NCBI GenBank assembly: GCA_946479405.1
Contig: CAMLGD010000219.1
Location: 1-5,212 of the forward strand
Source of the DNA: an uncultured Vogesella sp.
Lineage (GTDB): Bacteria; Pseudomonadota; Gammaproteobacteria; Burkholderiales; Chromobacteriaceae
Length of the DNA stretch: 5,212 nucleotides
Direction of reading: 5' to 3'
Shown: positions 1 through 5,212 of the stretch, piece by piece
Layout of the letters: every line of letters starts with the position of its first letter
Position numbering within the stretch: the stretch's first letter is position 1
Translations under genes and position numbers: made by a program
Notes under the pieces: generated by a model
Database searches by the model: none
Told to the model about the DNA's origin: nothing
Seen by the model: the letters and a program-made list of their open reading frames with translations, nothing else

Positions 1-216
1 ATCTTCGAGGCGCTGACCGCCTCCGACCGGCCGTACAAGCGGGCCAAGACGCTGTCCGAAGCCATCCACATCCTCAGCGGCTTCAAGCAGCGGCGGCATA
101 TCGACCCGCTGCTGTTCGACCTGTTCCTCACCTCCGGCGTGTACCTGCAGTATGCGCAGCGCTATCTGCAGCCTGAGCAGATCGATGAAGTGGACATCGC
201 CCGCTACCTGGGCTGA
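1..216 (+). CDS. HD-GYP-type phosphodiesterase, C-terminal fragment (5' end outside window)
   Basis: The reading frame is open from the first base and ends at TGA 214-216, giving the last 71 residues of a larger protein. The visible part begins IFEALTASDRPYKRAKTLSE, which matches the end of the HD-GYP domain: the helix after the metal-binding core, with the family's typical ALTASDRPYK stretch. It then continues through LFDLFLTSGVYLQYA to a short acidic tail ending in RYLG. HD-GYP proteins usually hydrolyse cyclic di-GMP and sit in the cytoplasm behind sensory or membrane domains. The HD metal ligands and the GYP motif themselves lie upstream of the window, so neither activity nor N-terminal sensory architecture can be judged here. 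A plain HD-domain phosphohydrolase with the same tail is the main alternative. The next gene on this strand begins 305 bases later and looks separately transcribed. Confidence 0.82.
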   Translation: MFEALTASDRPYKRAKTLSEAIHILSGFKQRRHIDPLLFDLFLTSGVYLQYAQRYLQPEQIDEVDIARYLG

Positions 217-521: not shown

Positions 522-1412
522 ATGAAATCCCCGCTTACGCTCTCCGCCATGCTGCTTGTCGGGCTGGCGGCCACCGGCAACGTCTGTCGTGCCGATACCC
601 TGCAGAAGATCGCGGACAGCAACCGCATCACCGTGTCGTACCGCGAGGCAGCGGTGCCGTTCAGCTACGTGGTCAATGGCAACAACATCATGGGCTTTGC
701 CGTCGACCTGACCGAGGCGGTAATCGACGACGTACGCCAGCAGCTCAAGCGCCCGGCGCTGCAGGTGGCATATATCCCGGTTACCTCGCAGACGCGCATC
801 CCCATGCTGGTGAATGGTAGCTACGACCTGGAGTGCGGCTCCACCACCAATAACGTCGCCCGCAACAAGGACGTTGCCTTCTCCATCAACTACTTCTATG
901 CCGGCACCCGGGTGCTGACCAGCAAGGCGGCCAATATCCGCAGCTATGCCGACCTGGCCGGCAAGACGGTGGCCACTACCGCCGGCAGTACCAATGAGAA
1001 AGTCATCCGTCAGTACAGTGAACAGCATGGCTTGGGCATGCAGCTGTTGCCGGCGAAAGACTATGCCGACTCGCTGGCGTTGCTGGAGCAGGGCCGCGCC
1101 GCGGCGGTGGCGTTGGACGATATCCTGTTGTACGGCCTGCGCGCCGGGGCGGCCAACCCTGCCGCGCTGGAAGTGGTGGGTGAGACGCTGCAGGTCGAAC
1201 CGTATGCCTGCATGCTGCGCAAGGATGATCCGGCCTTCAAGACGCTGGTGGATGGCGCCATCGCCCGGCTGATGCAGTCTGGCCGCTTTGCCCGCCTGTA
1301 TCACAGCTGGTTCGAAATGCCGATTCCGCCCAAGGGCACCATGCTGGCCATGCCAATGAGCGCAGCGCTGCAGGCCAATCTCAAGACCATGAGCGACAAG
1401 CCGGAACGCTAG
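522..1412 (+). CDS. gltI: GltI-type periplasmic glutamate/aspartate-binding protein (orphan ABC solute-binding protein)
   Basis: The 296-residue protein has a Sec signal peptide: Lys2, a hydrophobic core over about residues 5-19, and likely cleavage after Ala24 (VCRA/DT). Cys22 does not sit in a lipobox. The mature part is a type 2 periplasmic binding fold very close to the glutamate/aspartate receptor of gltIJKL: REAAVPFSY (41-49), TSQTRIP (88-94), ECGSTTNN (104-111), DD (199-200), CMLRKDDP (230-237) and PIPPKG (267-272). E. coli GltI is about the same length (302). Judged against the Shigella/E. coli protein from memory, ligand-contacting Arg41, Ser89, Arg92 and Ser107 are kept, but the contact His of AKDHGDS is Tyr181 here (AKDYADS). 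In transport it would capture an acidic amino acid or relative and deliver it to an inner-membrane permease. No permease or ATPase gene adjoins it: the next gene converges from the other strand. Family certain, exact ligand not. Confidence 0.88.
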   Translation: MKSPLTLSAMLLVGLAATGNVCRADTLQKIADSNRITVSYREAAVPFSYVVNGNNIMGFAVDLTEAVIDDVRQQLKRPALQVAYIPVTSQTRIPMLVNGSYDLECGSTTNNVARNKDVAFSINYFYAGTRVLTSKAANIRSYADLAGKTVATTAGSTNEKVIRQYSEQHGLGMQLLPAKDYADSLALLEQGRAAAVALDDILLYGLRAGAANPAALEVVGETLQVEPYACMLRKDDPAFKTLVDGAIARLMQSGRFARLYHSWFEMPIPPKGTMLAMPMSAALQANLKTMSDKPER

Positions 1413-1471: not shown

Positions 1472-2218
1472 CTAGGCTTGATCGCCATCCTTGAACCACA
1501 GCGCGTCCGGCAGCTGGCTGAACACGCTGCGCAGCCCCTCGCCCCAGCCCTGGCGCAGGGTCAGGAAGTAGGGGTCGTCCTCGGTAACGCGGTGGCGCGG
1601 CGCGAAGTCGAAGTGATCGCGCTGCTGCCACAACAGGTCAATCGGCAGCCCCACCGACAGGTTTGAGCGGATGGTGGAATCGAACGAGATCAGCGTGCAC
1701 TTGATGGCCTGCGCCAGCGGCGTGTCGTGGCGGATCACCCGGTCGAGGATGGGCTTGCCGTACTTGGCTTCGCCTATCTGCAGGTAGGGCGTGTCCGGGG
1801 TGGCTTCGATGAAATTGCCCTGCGGGTAGACCTGGAACAGCCGTGGCGGCTCGCCCTTGATCTGCCCTCCCACCAAAAAGCTGCAGCCGTAGTCCACGCC
1901 TTGCGACTGGGTCTGGCCGTCGCCGTCGCGGGCAATGACCTCGCGCACGGTGCGGCCAACCAGCTCCGCCGCCTGGTACAGGCTGGGGACGGTGTGGAGG
2001 TTGGCCGCATCGTGGCTGAGCCGGCTTTTCAGCAGGCTCACCACGCTCTGGGTGGTGGCCAGGTTGCCGGCGTTCAGCAGCACGATCTGCCGCTCGCCCG
2101 GCACCGCCACCACGTTCATCTTGCGGAAGGTGGCCACGTGGTCCACCCCCGCGTTGGTACGCGAATCGGAGGCAAAGATCAGCCCCTCGTCCAGCACCAT
2201 GCCGACACAGTAGGTCAT
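1472..2218 (-). CDS. anbu: Anbu, proteasome-related N-terminal threonine peptidase
   Basis: This 248-residue protein belongs to the Ntn-hydrolase family of bacterial proteasome relatives (COG3484, Anbu or putative proteasome-type protease). It starts MTYCVGMVLDEG; removal of Met exposes Thr as the catalytic residue 1. Counting from that Thr, Asp17 lies in ASDSRT and Lys32 in FRKM, equivalent to the Thr1/Asp17/Lys33 set of proteasome beta subunits. Other family marks are LLNAGNLATTQ (47-57), QIGEAKYGKPILDR (147-160) and SFDSTIRSNLSVGLPIDLL (178-196). Anbu subunits are known to assemble into ring-like or open helical cytoplasmic particles; natural substrates are unsettled. The start codon overlaps the transglutaminase stop as ATGA (2218-2215), and a GGAGG lies at 2233-2229, 10 bases ahead, inside the upstream gene. 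It is the last gene of the cluster, so its expression probably depends on coupling to the transglutaminase. Confidence 0.95.
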   Translation of the reverse strand: MTYCVGMVLDEGLIFASDSRTNAGVDHVATFRKMNVVAVPGERQIVLLNAGNLATTQSVVSLLKSRLSHDAANLHTVPSLYQAAELVGRTVREVIARDGDGQTQSQGVDYGCSFLVGGQIKGEPPRLFQVYPQGNFIEATPDTPYLQIGEAKYGKPILDRVIRHDTPLAQAIKCTLISFDSTIRSNLSVGLPIDLLWQQRDHFDFAPRHRVTEDDPYFLTLRQGWGEGLRSVFSQLPDALWFKDGDQA

Positions 2219-3009
2219 TGCTGGTCTGCCTCCGTTACCCGTGCATGCGCCTGCAGCGCCTCGCTGCCACCGCCCCGGCGCACGCCGCGCACCGGGCTGG
2301 CATCGCTGTAGTCCAGGCCCACCGCCAGCTTCAGGTGGTGGCGGTCCGGGCGCATGCGGTTGCTGATGTCAAAGCCCAGCCAGCGGCCCGCGGCATGCAC
2401 CTCGGCCCAGGCGTGGCTGGCCACGTGGGTGTCGCGGTCGCTCAGCAGGTAGCCGCTGACATAGCGCGCCGGCAGCCCCAGGCTGCGGCAGGCGGCGATG
2501 AACACATGGCTGTGGTCCTGACATACGCCGGCGCCCAGCGCCAGCGCCGCGCTGGCCGTGGTTTCCGCCGCGGTGACGCCGCTGCTGTAGGGCATGGCAT
2601 CGGCTACCGTCAGCATCAGCGCGGCGAGGCCGGCTTCCGCATTGGCGGCAATGGCGGCGGCATGGCTGGCCGCCAGCGCGCAGATGGCGGCGTCTGGTTC
2701 GGTCAGCGCGCTGCCGCGCAGGAACACCGGCGGTGGCAGGGCCTCGGCCTCGTCCGCCCAGTCGTCGCTGGTTTCCACCACGCCGTGGGCGCGCAGGCGA
2801 ATCTCGCTGTGCGGGGTGTCCAGGGTCAGCACATGCAGGATGTTGCCGTAGGCATCGCTGCTTTCACTGGCGGCCACCGGCAGCTCCAGCTGCCAGCTGA
2901 TGATGCGCTGATGCGCTGTTTGCGGCGGCGTCAGGCGCAGGTACTGGGTGCTGTGGCTGACGGTGGCGTCGTAGTGGTAGACGGTTTCGTGCGAGATGGT
3001 CAGTTGCAT
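2215..3009 (-). CDS. Transglutaminase-like cysteine enzyme of the Anbu cluster
   Basis: The 264-residue protein has the two-part layout of this COG1305 subgroup. The N-terminal beta-rich region begins MQLTISHETVYHYDATVSHS and carries YLRLTPP. The papain-like transglutaminase core follows, with the catalytic triad visible as Cys163 (GAGVCQDHSHVF), His199 (ASHAWAEV) and Asp214 (GFDISNR). The tail HHLKLAVGLDYSDASPVRG is also typical. No signal peptide or membrane segment is seen, so it should be cytoplasmic, like Anbu. Such enzymes can cleave or transfer acyl groups at amide bonds; the substrate here is unknown. A strong AGGAGG (3019-3014) lies 4 bases before the ATG, fixing the start. The gene is coupled to Anbu by an ATGA overlap, but 155 bases separate it from the GNAT gene upstream, so it may have its own promoter or rely on read-through. 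Confidence 0.93.
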   Translation of the reverse strand: MQLTISHETVYHYDATVSHSTQYLRLTPPQTAHQRIISWQLELPVAASESSDAYGNILHVLTLDTPHSEIRLRAHGVVETSDDWADEAEALPPPVFLRGSALTEPDAAICALAASHAAAIAANAEAGLAALMLTVADAMPYSSGVTAAETTASAALALGAGVCQDHSHVFIAACRSLGLPARYVSGYLLSDRDTHVASHAWAEVHAAGRWLGFDISNRMRPDRHHLKLAVGLDYSDASPVRGVRRGGGSEALQAHARVTEADQQ

Positions 3010-3164
3010 ATTGCCTCCTGCGGATAACGGCTAAAAACCGGTTTGCGATCTGCTACGTCTGCTCTCGATCGGGGCGATGCGGCGTTAAGCTCTGCACGGG
3101 AATGCGCCGTTGCGAGATGTAAACGCCGTCGTTTGCCTTGCCGCGCTAGCCTGCCAGCGCGGCA
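3010..3164 (-). other. 155-base gap inside the cluster, with hairpin and small palindrome
   Basis: All other junctions of this cluster overlap or lie within a few bases, so this gap stands out. It holds a 9-bp hairpin directly after the GNAT stop and a 10-bp perfect palindrome AAACCGGTTT (3035-3044), about 26 bases ahead of the transglutaminase start. On the minus strand a TTTACA (3124-3119) resembles a -35, but no acceptable -10 lies 16-18 bases further on, so I could not assign a sigma70 promoter. No coding remnant was recognised. Confidence 0.45.
3139..3164 (-). terminator. Perfect 9-bp hairpin right after the GNAT stop
   Basis: Read on the minus strand, TGCCGCGCT (3164-3156) pairs with AGCGCGGCA (3147-3139) around an 8-base loop. 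The stem begins at the base after the TGA stop. The following bases are AGGCAAAC, with no T-run, so full intrinsic termination is doubtful. Partial termination or 3'-end protection of the upstream three-gene message is possible. Confidence 0.4.
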
Positions 3165-3671
3165 TCAGCTGGCGAGTGAAAGTTGCCAGTAGGCCACGTC
3201 CAGCCAGCGGCCGAACTTGCGGCCAACCTGTTCGAAGCTGGCTACCTGCTTGAAGCCCAGCGCGCGGTGCAATGCGTCGCTGGCCGGGTTGGGTTGCGCC
3301 ACGCCGCCGATCACGGTGCGCAGGCCCAGAGCGGTGAGCCGTTGCAGCAGCTCGCGGTACAGCAGCTTGCCCAGGCCCTGGCCTACGGTTGCCTGGCGCA
3401 GGTAGATGCTGGCTTCCGCACTGTGGCGGTAGGCCGGGCGCGCACGCCAGCGGCTGGCATAGGCGTAGCCGAACAGCTCGCCGTCCTCGGCTTCGGCCAC
3501 CAGCCACGGCAGGCCCTGCGCCTGGGTGCCGGCGATGCGTTCGGCCATGTCGGCCACGCTTACCGGCTGCTCTTCGAAAGAGATGGTGGTGTACTCGATG
3601 TACGGGTTGTAGATGGCGCAGATGGCGGCCGCGTCGTGCGGGGTGGCCTCGCGGATGATCAGCTCGCTCAT
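3165..3671 (-). CDS. GNAT N-acetyltransferase of the MnaT/phosphinothricin-acetyltransferase family
   Basis: The 168-residue single-domain GNAT protein begins MSELIIREATPHDAAAICAI. The family's YNPYIEYTTISFEE follows (21-34), then LPWLVAE (54-60), GYAYASRWR (68-76) and YRHSAEASIY (81-90). The acetyl-CoA pyrophosphate loop is VGQGLG (96-101). PNPASDALHRALGF (127-140) and GRKFGRWLDVAYW (150-162) complete the fold. Relatives such as E. coli MnaT (YncA) and the PAT/Bar enzymes acetylate the amine of small molecules such as methionine analogues or phosphinothricin. Its start overlaps the alpha-E stop as ATGA (3671-3668), with GGAGG (3680-3676) 4 bases ahead, so it is translated with alpha-E. Upstream in-frame codons run antiparallel to nothing known and only shadow alpha-E, so the longer frame was rejected. 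A GNAT is not one of the usual four partners of this cluster; it may modify the pathway's substrate or be a passenger. Confidence 0.9.
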   Translation of the reverse strand: MSELIIREATPHDAAAICAIYNPYIEYTTISFEEQPVSVADMAERIAGTQAQGLPWLVAEAEDGELFGYAYASRWRARPAYRHSAEASIYLRQATVGQGLGKLLYRELLQRLTALGLRTVIGGVAQPNPASDALHRALGFKQVASFEQVGRKFGRWLDVAYWQLSLAS

Positions 3672-4591
3672 GCTGCCTCCAGGTAGGCGCCGTGCACGGC
3701 ATCGCCCAGTGCGTGAATCTGGCTGAGGAACTGCGCCAGGTAGGCGTGCAGCCCGCCGGCAAGAATGCTGTCGATCTGGTCGTAGCTCAGCTCGGCATGC
3801 AGGGTTGCGGCCAACCTTTTGGCACGGTGGCCGGTGTCGCCCTGGATGCGCGGCAGCAGCTCGGCAATCTCGTCCACGCAGGCGCGCAGCGAGCGCGGCA
3901 CGTCCGGGCGCAGGATCAGCAGCTCGGCCACCCGCCGCGCGCTCAGGCTGTCGCGGTACAGCTCGTGGTAGGCCTCGAAGGCGCCCAGCGAGCGCAGCAG
4001 CGCGCCCCACAGGTAGAAATCCGCCGCGCTGTCGTCCAGCTCGTGGCCCACCAGGTGCGATTTCACGTCGATCAGCCGTGCGGTGTTGTCGGCGCGTTCC
4101 AGGAAGGTGCCAAGGCGGATGAAGGAAAACGCGTCGTTGCGCTGGATGGTGCCGTAGGTGGTGCCGCGGAACAGGTGCGAGCGCTCTTTCACCCAGTCGA
4201 AGAAACCGGCCAGCGGGCGGCCCTCGGCGGCCATCTGCCGCGCTTCCAGCCAGCTGGCGTTGATGTTTTCCCACATCTCGCCGGTGATCTTGCCGCGCAC
4301 GGCGTGGGCGTTTTCGCGGGCGTATTTCAGGCAGCTGATGATGCTGGCGGGGTTGGCCGCATCAAAGGTCATGAAGTGCAGCACGTCGGCGGCGGCAAGC
4401 TGCGGGTGGCGGGCGCGGCAGGCGTCCAGCGCGCCGGTGGTGGCCAGTGCGGCGGCAATGTCGGCGCCGCCTCGGGATTGCGGCAGCAGCGACAGGCTGT
4501 GGGTCACGTCGAGAAGGCGCGCCAGGTTTTCGGCGCGCTCCATGTAACGGCTCATCCAGTACAGCTGGGAAGCGGTGCGCGAGAGCATCAT
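3668..4591 (-). CDS. Alpha-E domain protein (COG2307/DUF403), partner of the ATP-grasp ligase
   Basis: The 307-residue, largely helical protein has the N-terminus MLSRTASQLYWMSRYMERAE typical of the family, and full family length. Two similar charged motifs, ERAENLARLLDV (18-29) and ERADNTARLIDV (165-176), suggest an internal duplication of the helical unit. NASWLEAR (111-118), FDWVKERSHLFRGTTYGT (131-148) and LSYDQID (268-274) are further family-like stretches. No enzyme activity is established. The protein is almost always encoded next to the circularly permuted ATP-grasp protein, which implies a joint complex or successive steps. Three in-frame ATGs lie at 4597, 4591 and 4588. The first overlaps the upstream stop as ATGA but abuts the GGAGGA (4603-4598), leaving no spacing. 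The second is 6 bases beyond it and is preferred; the third gives the commonest family N-terminus, MLSRTA. The end overlaps the GNAT start. Confidence 0.93.
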   Translation of the reverse strand: MMLSRTASQLYWMSRYMERAENLARLLDVTHSLSLLPQSRGGADIAAALATTGALDACRARHPQLAAADVLHFMTFDAANPASIISCLKYARENAHAVRGKITGEMWENINASWLEARQMAAEGRPLAGFFDWVKERSHLFRGTTYGTIQRNDAFSFIRLGTFLERADNTARLIDVKSHLVGHELDDSAADFYLWGALLRSLGAFEAYHELYRDSLSARRVAELLILRPDVPRSLRACVDEIAELLPRIQGDTGHRAKRLAATLHAELSYDQIDSILAGGLHAYLAQFLSQIHALGDAVHGAYLEAA

Positions 4592-4593
4592 GA

Positions 4594-5212
4594 TCATTCC
4601 TCCAGTATCCAGGTGTCCTTGGTGCCGCCGCCCTGCGACGAATTCACCACCAGCGAGCCCTGCTTGAGCGCCACGCGGGTGAGCCCGCCGGCCACCATGC
4701 TGATTTCGCGGCCGGACAGCACAAAGGGGCGCAGGTCGATGTGGCGCGGGGCGATGCCGGCCTCCACGAAGGTGGGGCAGGACGACAGGCACAGCGTGGG
4801 CTGCGCGATGTAGTTGGCCGGGTCGGCGAGGATGCGCTGGCGGAAGTCCTCGATCTCGGCGCTGCTGGCGGCGGGGCCGATCAGCATGCCGTAGCCGCCG
4901 GCGCCGTGAACTTCCTTCACCACCAGCTCGGCCAGGTTGTTCAGCACGTGGTCCAGCTCGGCCGGGCGGCGGCACATCCAGGTGGGCACGTTCTGCAGCA
5001 GCGGCTCCTCGCTCAGGTAAAAGCGGATCATGTCCGGCACGTAGGGGTAGATGGATTTGTCGTCCGCCACGCCGGTGCCGATGGCATTGGCCAGGATCAC
5101 GCCGCCGCTGCGGTACACCGACAGCAGCCCGGGCACGCCCAGCATGCTGTCGGCGCGGAAGGCCAGCGGGTCGAGGAAGGCGTCGTCGATGCGGCGGTAG
5201 ATCACGTCCACC
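4594..5212 (-). CDS. Circularly permuted ATP-grasp protein (COG2308), C-terminal part; 5' end outside window
   Basis: About 205 C-terminal residues are visible. The GTG at 5211 is an internal Val of the family motif [16 protein letters not shown], not a start, and the frame is open to the window edge. Family members are roughly 470-490 residues, so more than half the protein is missing. Numbering from that Val, recognisable parts are [10 protein letters not shown] (21-30), [20 protein letters not shown] (42-61), the nucleotide-binding strand and glycine loop [16 protein letters not shown] (97-112), YIAQP (134-138), HIDLRPFVL (157-165) and [14 protein letters not shown] (190-203). ATP-grasp enzymes activate a carboxylate as acyl-phosphate and join it to an amine; in this group the substrate is unknown and peptide or amide synthesis is a prediction. 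It heads the visible cluster, and its stop lies 2 bases from the preferred alpha-E start. The cluster's promoter would be beyond the window. Confidence 0.93.
4598..4603 (-). promoter_or_regulatory. Shine-Dalgarno of alpha-E inside the ATP-grasp 3' end
   Basis: GGAGGA encodes the last two Glu residues of the ATP-grasp protein and also acts as the ribosome site of alpha-E. It touches ATG 4597 directly, lies 6 bases from ATG 4591 and 9 from ATG 4588. Normal spacing argues for the second or third ATG even though the first makes the neat ATGA overlap. Confidence 0.7.

Follow-up and report, generated by a model that had tools for sequence, protein, structure and literature searches.

The closest described relatives of the gene cluster reported here are the Anbu operons of Pseudomonas and Yersinia, which encode a circularly permuted ATP-grasp ligase, an Alpha-E protein, a transglutaminase-like cysteine enzyme (TG) and Anbu, a proteasome-like Ntn hydrolase. 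Nitrogen control of this family is already known. In Pseudomonas putida, PP_2685-2688 are up on nitrogen limitation, a response ascribed to NtrC (PMC7801951, PMC3325844), and depletion of nitrogen raised the signal of a PP_2688 promoter reporter 3.7-fold, with no response from a piece taken upstream of PP_2685 (PMC8050072). An ntrC mutant of Burkholderia cenocepacia showed 8.2-, 9.4-, 9.4- and 6.0-fold lower expression of I35_5080-83, which encode DUF404/407, DUF403 and two transglutaminase-domain proteins and were designated shared targets of sigma-54 and NtrC (PMC5491218). A survey of the sigma-54 regulon includes COG3484 (PMC12316311), urea-metabolism domains co-vary with Anbu-operon families in marine metagenomes (PMC3597751), and the ATP-grasp of the Yersinia operon releases phosphate from ATP (PMC6376114). 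In the parts available, the published accounts of the Anbu operon assign it no product. The cluster examined here occupies positions 1472-5212 of a 5,212-nucleotide (nt) stretch of DNA from an uncultured Vogesella sp. (contig CAMLGD010000219.1), which as a whole is called the window. It is the known Anbu operon, intact, with an ArsN1b-type N-acetyltransferase of the GNAT family encoded between Alpha-E and TG. The embedded acetyltransferase is a new variant feature in an otherwise known operon; also new are how far the nitrogen-type promoter signature extends in the phylum and its association with the ligase module.

Gene content and conservation of the operon

All five genes of the cluster are real and lie on the minus strand, where they are transcribed in the order ATP-grasp, Alpha-E, GNAT, TG, Anbu. 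Families were assigned by comparison with Pfam, NCBIfam and PDB. The ATP-grasp gene (4594-5212; PF14403/PF04174) runs off the window at its 5' end; the C-terminal 205 codons that are present scored 257.4 bits against PF14403 and cover profile positions 197-374 of 374. Alpha-E (3668-4597) scored 320.5 bits against PF04168 (cut-off 20.8). TG (2215-3009, 264 amino acids) was matched by PF08379 (77.0 bits), PF01841 (70.2 bits) and PDB 3isr (E 1.2e-14), and carries a Cys163, His199, Asp214 triad. Anbu (1472-2218, 248 amino acids) scored 40.3 bits against the Proteasome family PF00227 (cut-off 22.4) and matched the solved Anbu structures 5loy, 5nyw and 5lox, best 5loy (E 1.1e-100); its nucleophile is Thr2, with Asp18 and Lys33, that is Thr1, Asp17 and Lys32 after removal of Met. 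The genes are tightly packed: the Alpha-E ATG overlaps the ATP-grasp stop (ATGA), and 4-nt overlaps join the GNAT start to the Alpha-E stop and the TG stop to the Anbu start. From the coordinates, the gap between GNAT and TG is 155 nt.

The catalytic residues were followed in an alignment of 121 rows, made up of 120 canonical loci and, as reference, the window. Conservation of the TG residues Cys, His and Asp extends to 119, 121 and 121 rows respectively, and that of the Thr, Asp and Lys of Anbu to 120, 121 and 121; many ATP-grasp columns are conserved across the same rows. In two of the rows the TG catalytic Cys column holds Gly, so that TG may be inactive in a small number of operons, unless the alignment is in error there. 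Statements about the ATP-grasp N terminus rest on relatives of the window, as do those about the promoter below. A full-length relative (L003:6302-7729, 475 amino acids) matches PDB 3n6x over query residues 10-474 (E 1.9e-221), and this match and the alignment indicate that the N-terminal half of the ligase is intact in relatives. Thus the first-pass annotation, made from the sequence alone, was right in its five minus-strand genes, in the four families that it named, with Pfam, NCBIfam and PDB standing in for COG profiles, and in the presence of their catalytic residues.

The eight closest of 80 fetched loci are Vogesella-type (L001-L008, five from Vogesella and three from relatives). Among the 80, V. 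margarita L003 was the best match for ATP-grasp (100% identity), Alpha-E (99.6%) and GNAT (98.2%); L141 duplicates L003 in the locus sets. Conservation was then viewed across 299 evenly picked genomes of the phylum. Anbu is widespread, being present in 101 of these, and Alpha-E in 156. Alpha-E was found in 100 of the 101 genomes with Anbu against 56 of the 198 without it (Fisher p 3e-37, in a test that ignores phylogeny), and for 86 of 102 Anbu genes an Alpha-E gene is at most 10 kb away, among the matches listed. All 40 genomes picked from Anbu-bearing loci, including those with solo Anbu, also hold Alpha-E somewhere. Loci were fetched for the phylum sample at 100 of the 102 Anbu places, one of the two left out (G056) being added later as L259. 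Exactly the order ATP-grasp, Alpha-E, TG, Anbu was found in 65 of the 100; the remaining 35 comprise 10 of a divergent double form, 12 with Anbu alone and 13 other forms. The co-conservation that the first-pass annotation had expected of these genes is therefore borne out, and the window keeps the canonical order with one GNAT inserted. The 100 loci and the 80 from species genomes make up the 180 Anbu loci referred to below. Other same-strand inserts are rare in Anbu operons, gaps such as those before Anbu in L021 and L014 being left out.

The embedded acetyltransferase

The gene that the first-pass annotation had left unnamed (3165-3671, minus strand, 168 amino acids) encodes a GNAT N-acetyltransferase of the ArsN1b or phosphinothricin acetyltransferase (PAT) type. 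It scored 220.6 bits against the ArsN1b model NF040504 (cut-off 210), matched PAT/ArsN1 chains in PDB, and has four in-operon relatives that scored 213.3-225.1 bits against the same model. Among the 80 loci, a GNAT stands between Alpha-E and TG in all eight of the Vogesella-type and all three from Chitinimonas. The 4-nt overlap with the Alpha-E stop recurs in each of the seven Vogesella-type loci measured, and in four of these the start of TG is overlapped as well. Six of seven pairs gave a GNAT dN/dS of 0.06-0.26.

The ligand-binding residues of PpArsN1 have been described (PMC6465285). Ten pocket positions were compared in ten in-operon GNATs: seven are invariant, one is Ile or Val, and two (77 and 159) are variable. 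Ile/Val30, Phe32, Arg76, Arg78, Tyr81, Tyr90 and Ala125 are kept in all ten, and Glu86 occupies the general-base position, where PpArsN1 has Asp85 and ShPAT has Glu88. From this conservation of the PpArsN1 pocket, the enzyme is predicted to acetylate glutamate analogues at their alpha-amine. In each of the five Vogesella and three Chitinimonas genomes searched, the gene is the sole ArsN1b-type copy above the cut-off; the Chitinimonas genomes have an additional, weaker copy (112-115 bits). In the phylum sample an ArsN1b-type gene was found in 62 of 299 genomes (E <= 1e-40), 11 of them over the cut-off, and that of V. margarita is the only one of the 62 within 20 kb of Anbu or Alpha-E, among the matches listed.

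A single clade of Vogesella and Chitinimonas operons was rejected (approximately unbiased test, p 0.0001, with a quick tree of the four operon genes). Since the operon tree separates the two groups, the same slot may have been filled twice, or the gene may have been lost several times. In the GNAT tree, from which four short rows were dropped, both groups fall within one clade of 48 rows with other proteins between them, so that there may instead have been a single old gain followed by losses. The window GNAT forms one clade with 34 rows labelled Vogesella, most of these labels having been set from identity. Other GNATs are also found in or near such clusters. A different, second GNAT lies between ATP-grasp and Alpha-E in Chitinimonas and Parachitinimonas (L247), and a third type overlaps the start of the solo Anbu of Parachitinimonas. 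Further GNATs in these two genera, of different kinds and at other slots, lie within the cluster or immediately ahead of it at L013:7012-7584, L014:6419-6997, L247:5874-6476 and L039:9483-10004.

Promoter motifs upstream of the operon

In seven of the eight Vogesella-type loci the sequence TGGCAC(G/A)-N4-TTGCT is found 34-37 nt before the ATP-grasp ATG. Scored against the strings that we take to be the sigma-54 and NtrC consensus sequences, these -24/-12 sites reach 11 or 12 of 12, and the sequence around them is otherwise divergent. Sites scoring at least 10 of 12 were present in 71 of 140 loci, with one ATP-grasp per locus and related species mixed, against 1.2% of shuffles. NtrC-like sites scoring at least 11 of 14 were located upstream of 39 of 72 sigma-54 sites, again with related species mixed, against 7.5% in mononucleotide shuffles. 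A cleaner test than either count is given by the 66 canonical operons of the phylum sample, of which 26 have a sigma-54 score of at least 10 and 17 a score of at least 11, compared with four and none, respectively, of 180 control open reading frames (ORFs; the three longest per locus outside the cluster, some of them perhaps not genes). In all eight genomes searched for them (five Vogesella, two Chitinimonas and one Parachitinimonas), both rpoN and an over-cut-off ntrC are present. Nitrogen control of the operon is well supported, although an rpoN mutant of P. putida still induces it, and the sigma-54-type promoter and putative NtrC-like sites of the relatives make nitrogen shortage the most likely signal for its expression.

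The gene contexts in which the signature occurs were compared using 20 of the 56 Anbu-less genomes with Alpha-E and 19 picked solo-Anbu regions in addition to the Anbu loci. Stand-alone ATP-grasp genes have a site in 27 of 82 cases at Anbu loci, 8 of 19 in the solo-Anbu genomes and 10 of 21 in the Anbu-less genomes. For ATP-grasp fused to Alpha-E (ORFs of more than 800 codons) the corresponding counts are 0 of 12, 2 of 8 and 0 of 2. Solo Anbu genes have it in 1 of 34 cases. By these frequencies, the sigma-54 signature goes with the ligase/Alpha-E module in its stand-alone form and not with Anbu, and the molecule concerned is therefore to be sought in nitrogen-starved cells.

Internal duplication of Alpha-E

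An AlphaFold2 model of Alpha-E built with 68 sequences is all-helical (pLDDT 86.6, pTM 0.87), and a sequence search of PDB found no relative of the protein. Residues 9-99 and 156-250, numbered from the MLSR at 4588, are mutually homologous (HHalign probability 96.5, E 8.8e-10, score 61.6), while 20 column shuffles of this comparison scored at most 17.4. Alpha-E is thus an internal duplication, and in both repeats an ER(A)(E/D)N motif precedes a P-x-S motif. Of 202 Alpha-E proteins, 151 have two ER[AS][DE] motifs, 42 have one and nine have none. Many Arg and Glu residues are invariant, which suggests that an anionic ligand is bound between the repeats, and the duplication serves as a guide to where the active site should be looked for.

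Proposed function and alternatives

ATP-grasp enzymes form amides by way of acyl phosphates. Our preferred reading is that the operon encodes a nitrogen-starvation pathway that forms and splits amides of glutamate-like compounds, with the GNAT as capping enzyme; we put its probability at about 0.4. In such a pathway the operon would be switched on from its sigma-54-type promoter at nitrogen shortage. The ATP-grasp, aided by Alpha-E, would convert a carboxylate to its acyl phosphate and couple this with an amine, the product being the amide of a glutamate-like compound. TG and Anbu would be the amide-handling partners, carrying out hydrolysis or transfer with their Cys and Thr nucleophiles, and the GNAT of Vogesella and Chitinimonas would acetyl-cap the alpha-amino group of the glutamate-like substrate or product. 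The results bear directly on the identity and intactness of the genes, their co-conservation and the promoter signature. We infer a single compound shared by the ligase and the hydrolases, its glutamate-like nature, and the membership of the GNAT in the pathway. The embedded GNAT, from a family that binds glutamate analogues, suggests both a substrate class and a mass tag of +42.011 Da. The first-pass annotation had read the cluster differently: its families, intactness and co-conservation stand, none of its three refuting conditions having come about, while the proposed mechanism, in which a small peptide is made or attached and then handled by TG and Anbu, is shown by no present result. The promoter and the GNAT suggest a role in nitrogen metabolism and a substrate resembling glutamate; peptide synthesis is neither proved nor excluded by them.

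Several observations weigh against the amide pathway. The sigma-54 promoter lies beyond the window and is seen in relatives; 40 of the 66 canonical operons score under 10; and in L008 (V. urethralis) the upstream region is unrelated and the site missing, with all operon genes present. Of 34 solo Anbu genes, 33 are without the site and one has it, so that the nitrogen programme need not extend to Anbu. The P. putida Anbu gene PP_2685 changed 1.12-fold in the wild type under nitrogen limitation in one data set, and PP_2686-2688 were up 14.2, 16.0 and 19.6 in an rpoN mutant, compared with 12.6, 11.0 and 14.7 in the wild type (PMC7801951). In the same table urtA is likewise induced without rpoN, so the strain or the P. 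putida sigma-54 assignment needs a second look. Anbu was reported to have no specific interaction with the other operon proteins (PMC6376114), and the Alpha-E model found no confident fold match in PDB. As for the GNAT, its dN/dS against V. oryzae is 0.54, 61 of the 62 ArsN1b-type genes lie more than 20 kb from Anbu or Alpha-E among the matches listed, and in 180 Anbu loci, scanned with an iterated GNAT profile that could miss distant GNATs, it was found inside the operon in the Vogesella-type and Chitinimonas loci only. The last two observations rule out the GNAT as a universal fifth member and mean that it is no core part of the operon.

The GNAT evidence is in large part accounted for by another explanation, in which the enzyme detoxifies inhibitors of glutamine synthetase of the arsinothricin or phosphinothricin type and uses the nitrogen-starvation promoter for its expression, at a time when the cell depends most on glutamine synthetase. 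The ArsN1b equivalog match above cut-off, the conserved inhibitor pocket and the sole above-cut-off copy in the eight genomes searched all fit such a role, and the relatives remote from Anbu and Alpha-E indicate that the enzyme works without the operon. Against it stand the use of the same slot by two lineages without a sister relationship in the operon tree and the overlap of the GNAT with Alpha-E in Vogesella. In addition, the clusters of Chitinimonas and Parachitinimonas contain or adjoin GNATs of other types, for which a lone resistance gene offers no explanation. We consider detoxification possible, if on the unlikely side; it is silent on the core substrate and compatible with the other readings, whose odds need not sum to one. 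A similarly separate role has been considered for Anbu, as an independent protease tied to the ligase module by shared transcription alone. It is the only core gene at 34 of the 180 loci, nearly all of these without a sigma-54 site, Alpha-E is commonly found in genomes that lack Anbu (56 of them), and the Anbu gene was hardly induced in the P. putida data set mentioned above (PMC7801951). Such independence is hard to square with the finding that 100 of the 101 genomes with Anbu have Alpha-E, a pattern that holds for unlinked Anbu genes too, and we regard it as very doubtful.

Protein tagging would give the core enzymes a different substrate. The ligase and Alpha-E would add a peptide tag to proteins, TG would edit it and Anbu would degrade the tagged proteins to supply nitrogen during starvation, and control by nitrogen starvation is compatible with such turnover. 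Hypotheses of this type are attributed to Iyer et al. 2009 and to Valas and Bourne 2008 in PMC6376114, and in P. aeruginosa Thr1 of Anbu mediates the binding of epoxomicin and MG132 (PMC5666114). However, those parts of the two biochemical studies that were available report no peptidase activity of Anbu on standard substrates and no protease activity (PMC6376114, PMC5666114), the window cluster has no unfoldase gene, Anbu is lacking from 56 of the 156 genomes with Alpha-E, and a GNAT of the type that acts on free amino acids would fit a protein tag poorly. Tagging thus seems to us rather improbable. The amide pathway can also be put in a bolder form, according to which Anbu and Alpha-E do not tag proteins, the nitrogen-starvation pathway builds and recycles a glutamate-type amide as stored or scavenged nitrogen, and two lineages acquired the GNAT at the same slot for capping the pathway amine; as a whole, this form of it is unlikely to be correct.

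Neighbouring genes and other cluster forms

Next to the operon in the window is an orphan solute-binding protein gene of the glutamate/aspartate type (522-1412, plus strand, PF00497), convergent with Anbu. It scored 282.6 bits against PRK10797, under the cut-off of 375, and an 86% homologue adjoins Anbu in one of the eight Vogesella-type loci, that of V. oryzae (L002). The end of a putative HD-domain protein lies at 1-216 (plus strand; PF13487 HD_5, 24.6 bits, under the cut-off of 27.2). Elsewhere, one genome has a LysE-type amino acid exporter gene (L229:4453-5076) between ATP-grasp and Alpha-E, and a CMD-family protein is inserted in the cluster of L198, with L202 similar by eye. In L192, L197 and L200 a large gene on the opposite strand separates TG from Anbu; that of L192 matches the peptide-type solute-binding family SBP_bac_5. 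Examples of loci with Anbu as sole core gene are L031, L033, L038 and L051. In Roseateles/Pelomonas relatives with solo Anbu, the ligase and Alpha-E genes are located elsewhere, and a fused ATP-grasp/Alpha-E paralogue is often found about 7-8 kb from a stand-alone ATP-grasp.

Comparison with known systems

A precedent for acetylation combined with ligation on glutamine-type residues is the N-acetylglutaminylglutamine amide pathway, which uses a GNAT/ATP-grasp fusion (TIGR03103). In the window, by contrast, the ATP-grasp is of the circularly permuted family and the genes are separate, and the window GNAT had no TIGR03103 match at E 0.001. As to the ligase, the L003 homologue aligns over 465 residues with 3n6x, a circularly permuted ATP-grasp/DUF404-407 protein named putative glutathionylspermidine synthase, and no sequence difference from 3n6x was seen. 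The I35_5080-83 cluster of B. cenocepacia also begins with DUF404/407 and DUF403 but has a second, large transglutaminase-domain protein, and the part of the account available makes no mention of Anbu (PMC5491218). Like operons of the NtrC/sigma-54 regulon, the window's relatives have a -24/-12 site before ATP-grasp, with putative NtrC-like palindromes upstream, as judged from sequence.

The window GNAT lies above the curated cut-off for the ArsN1/phosphinothricin N-acetyltransferases (NF040504; PDB 5jtf, 5dwm), and its Ile30, Phe32, Arg76, Arg78, Tyr81, Glu86, Tyr90 and Ala125 match ligand or catalytic positions of PpArsN1 and ShPAT. It differs from those enzymes in being encoded within an operon that has a nitrogen-starvation-type promoter, and its activity is a predicted one. 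With the Anbu operon of Pseudomonas and Yersinia, which in P. putida is induced by nitrogen limitation (PMC7801951, PMC8050072), the window shares the same four families, their order and their catalytic residues; what sets it apart is the ArsN1b-type GNAT embedded as a fifth gene.

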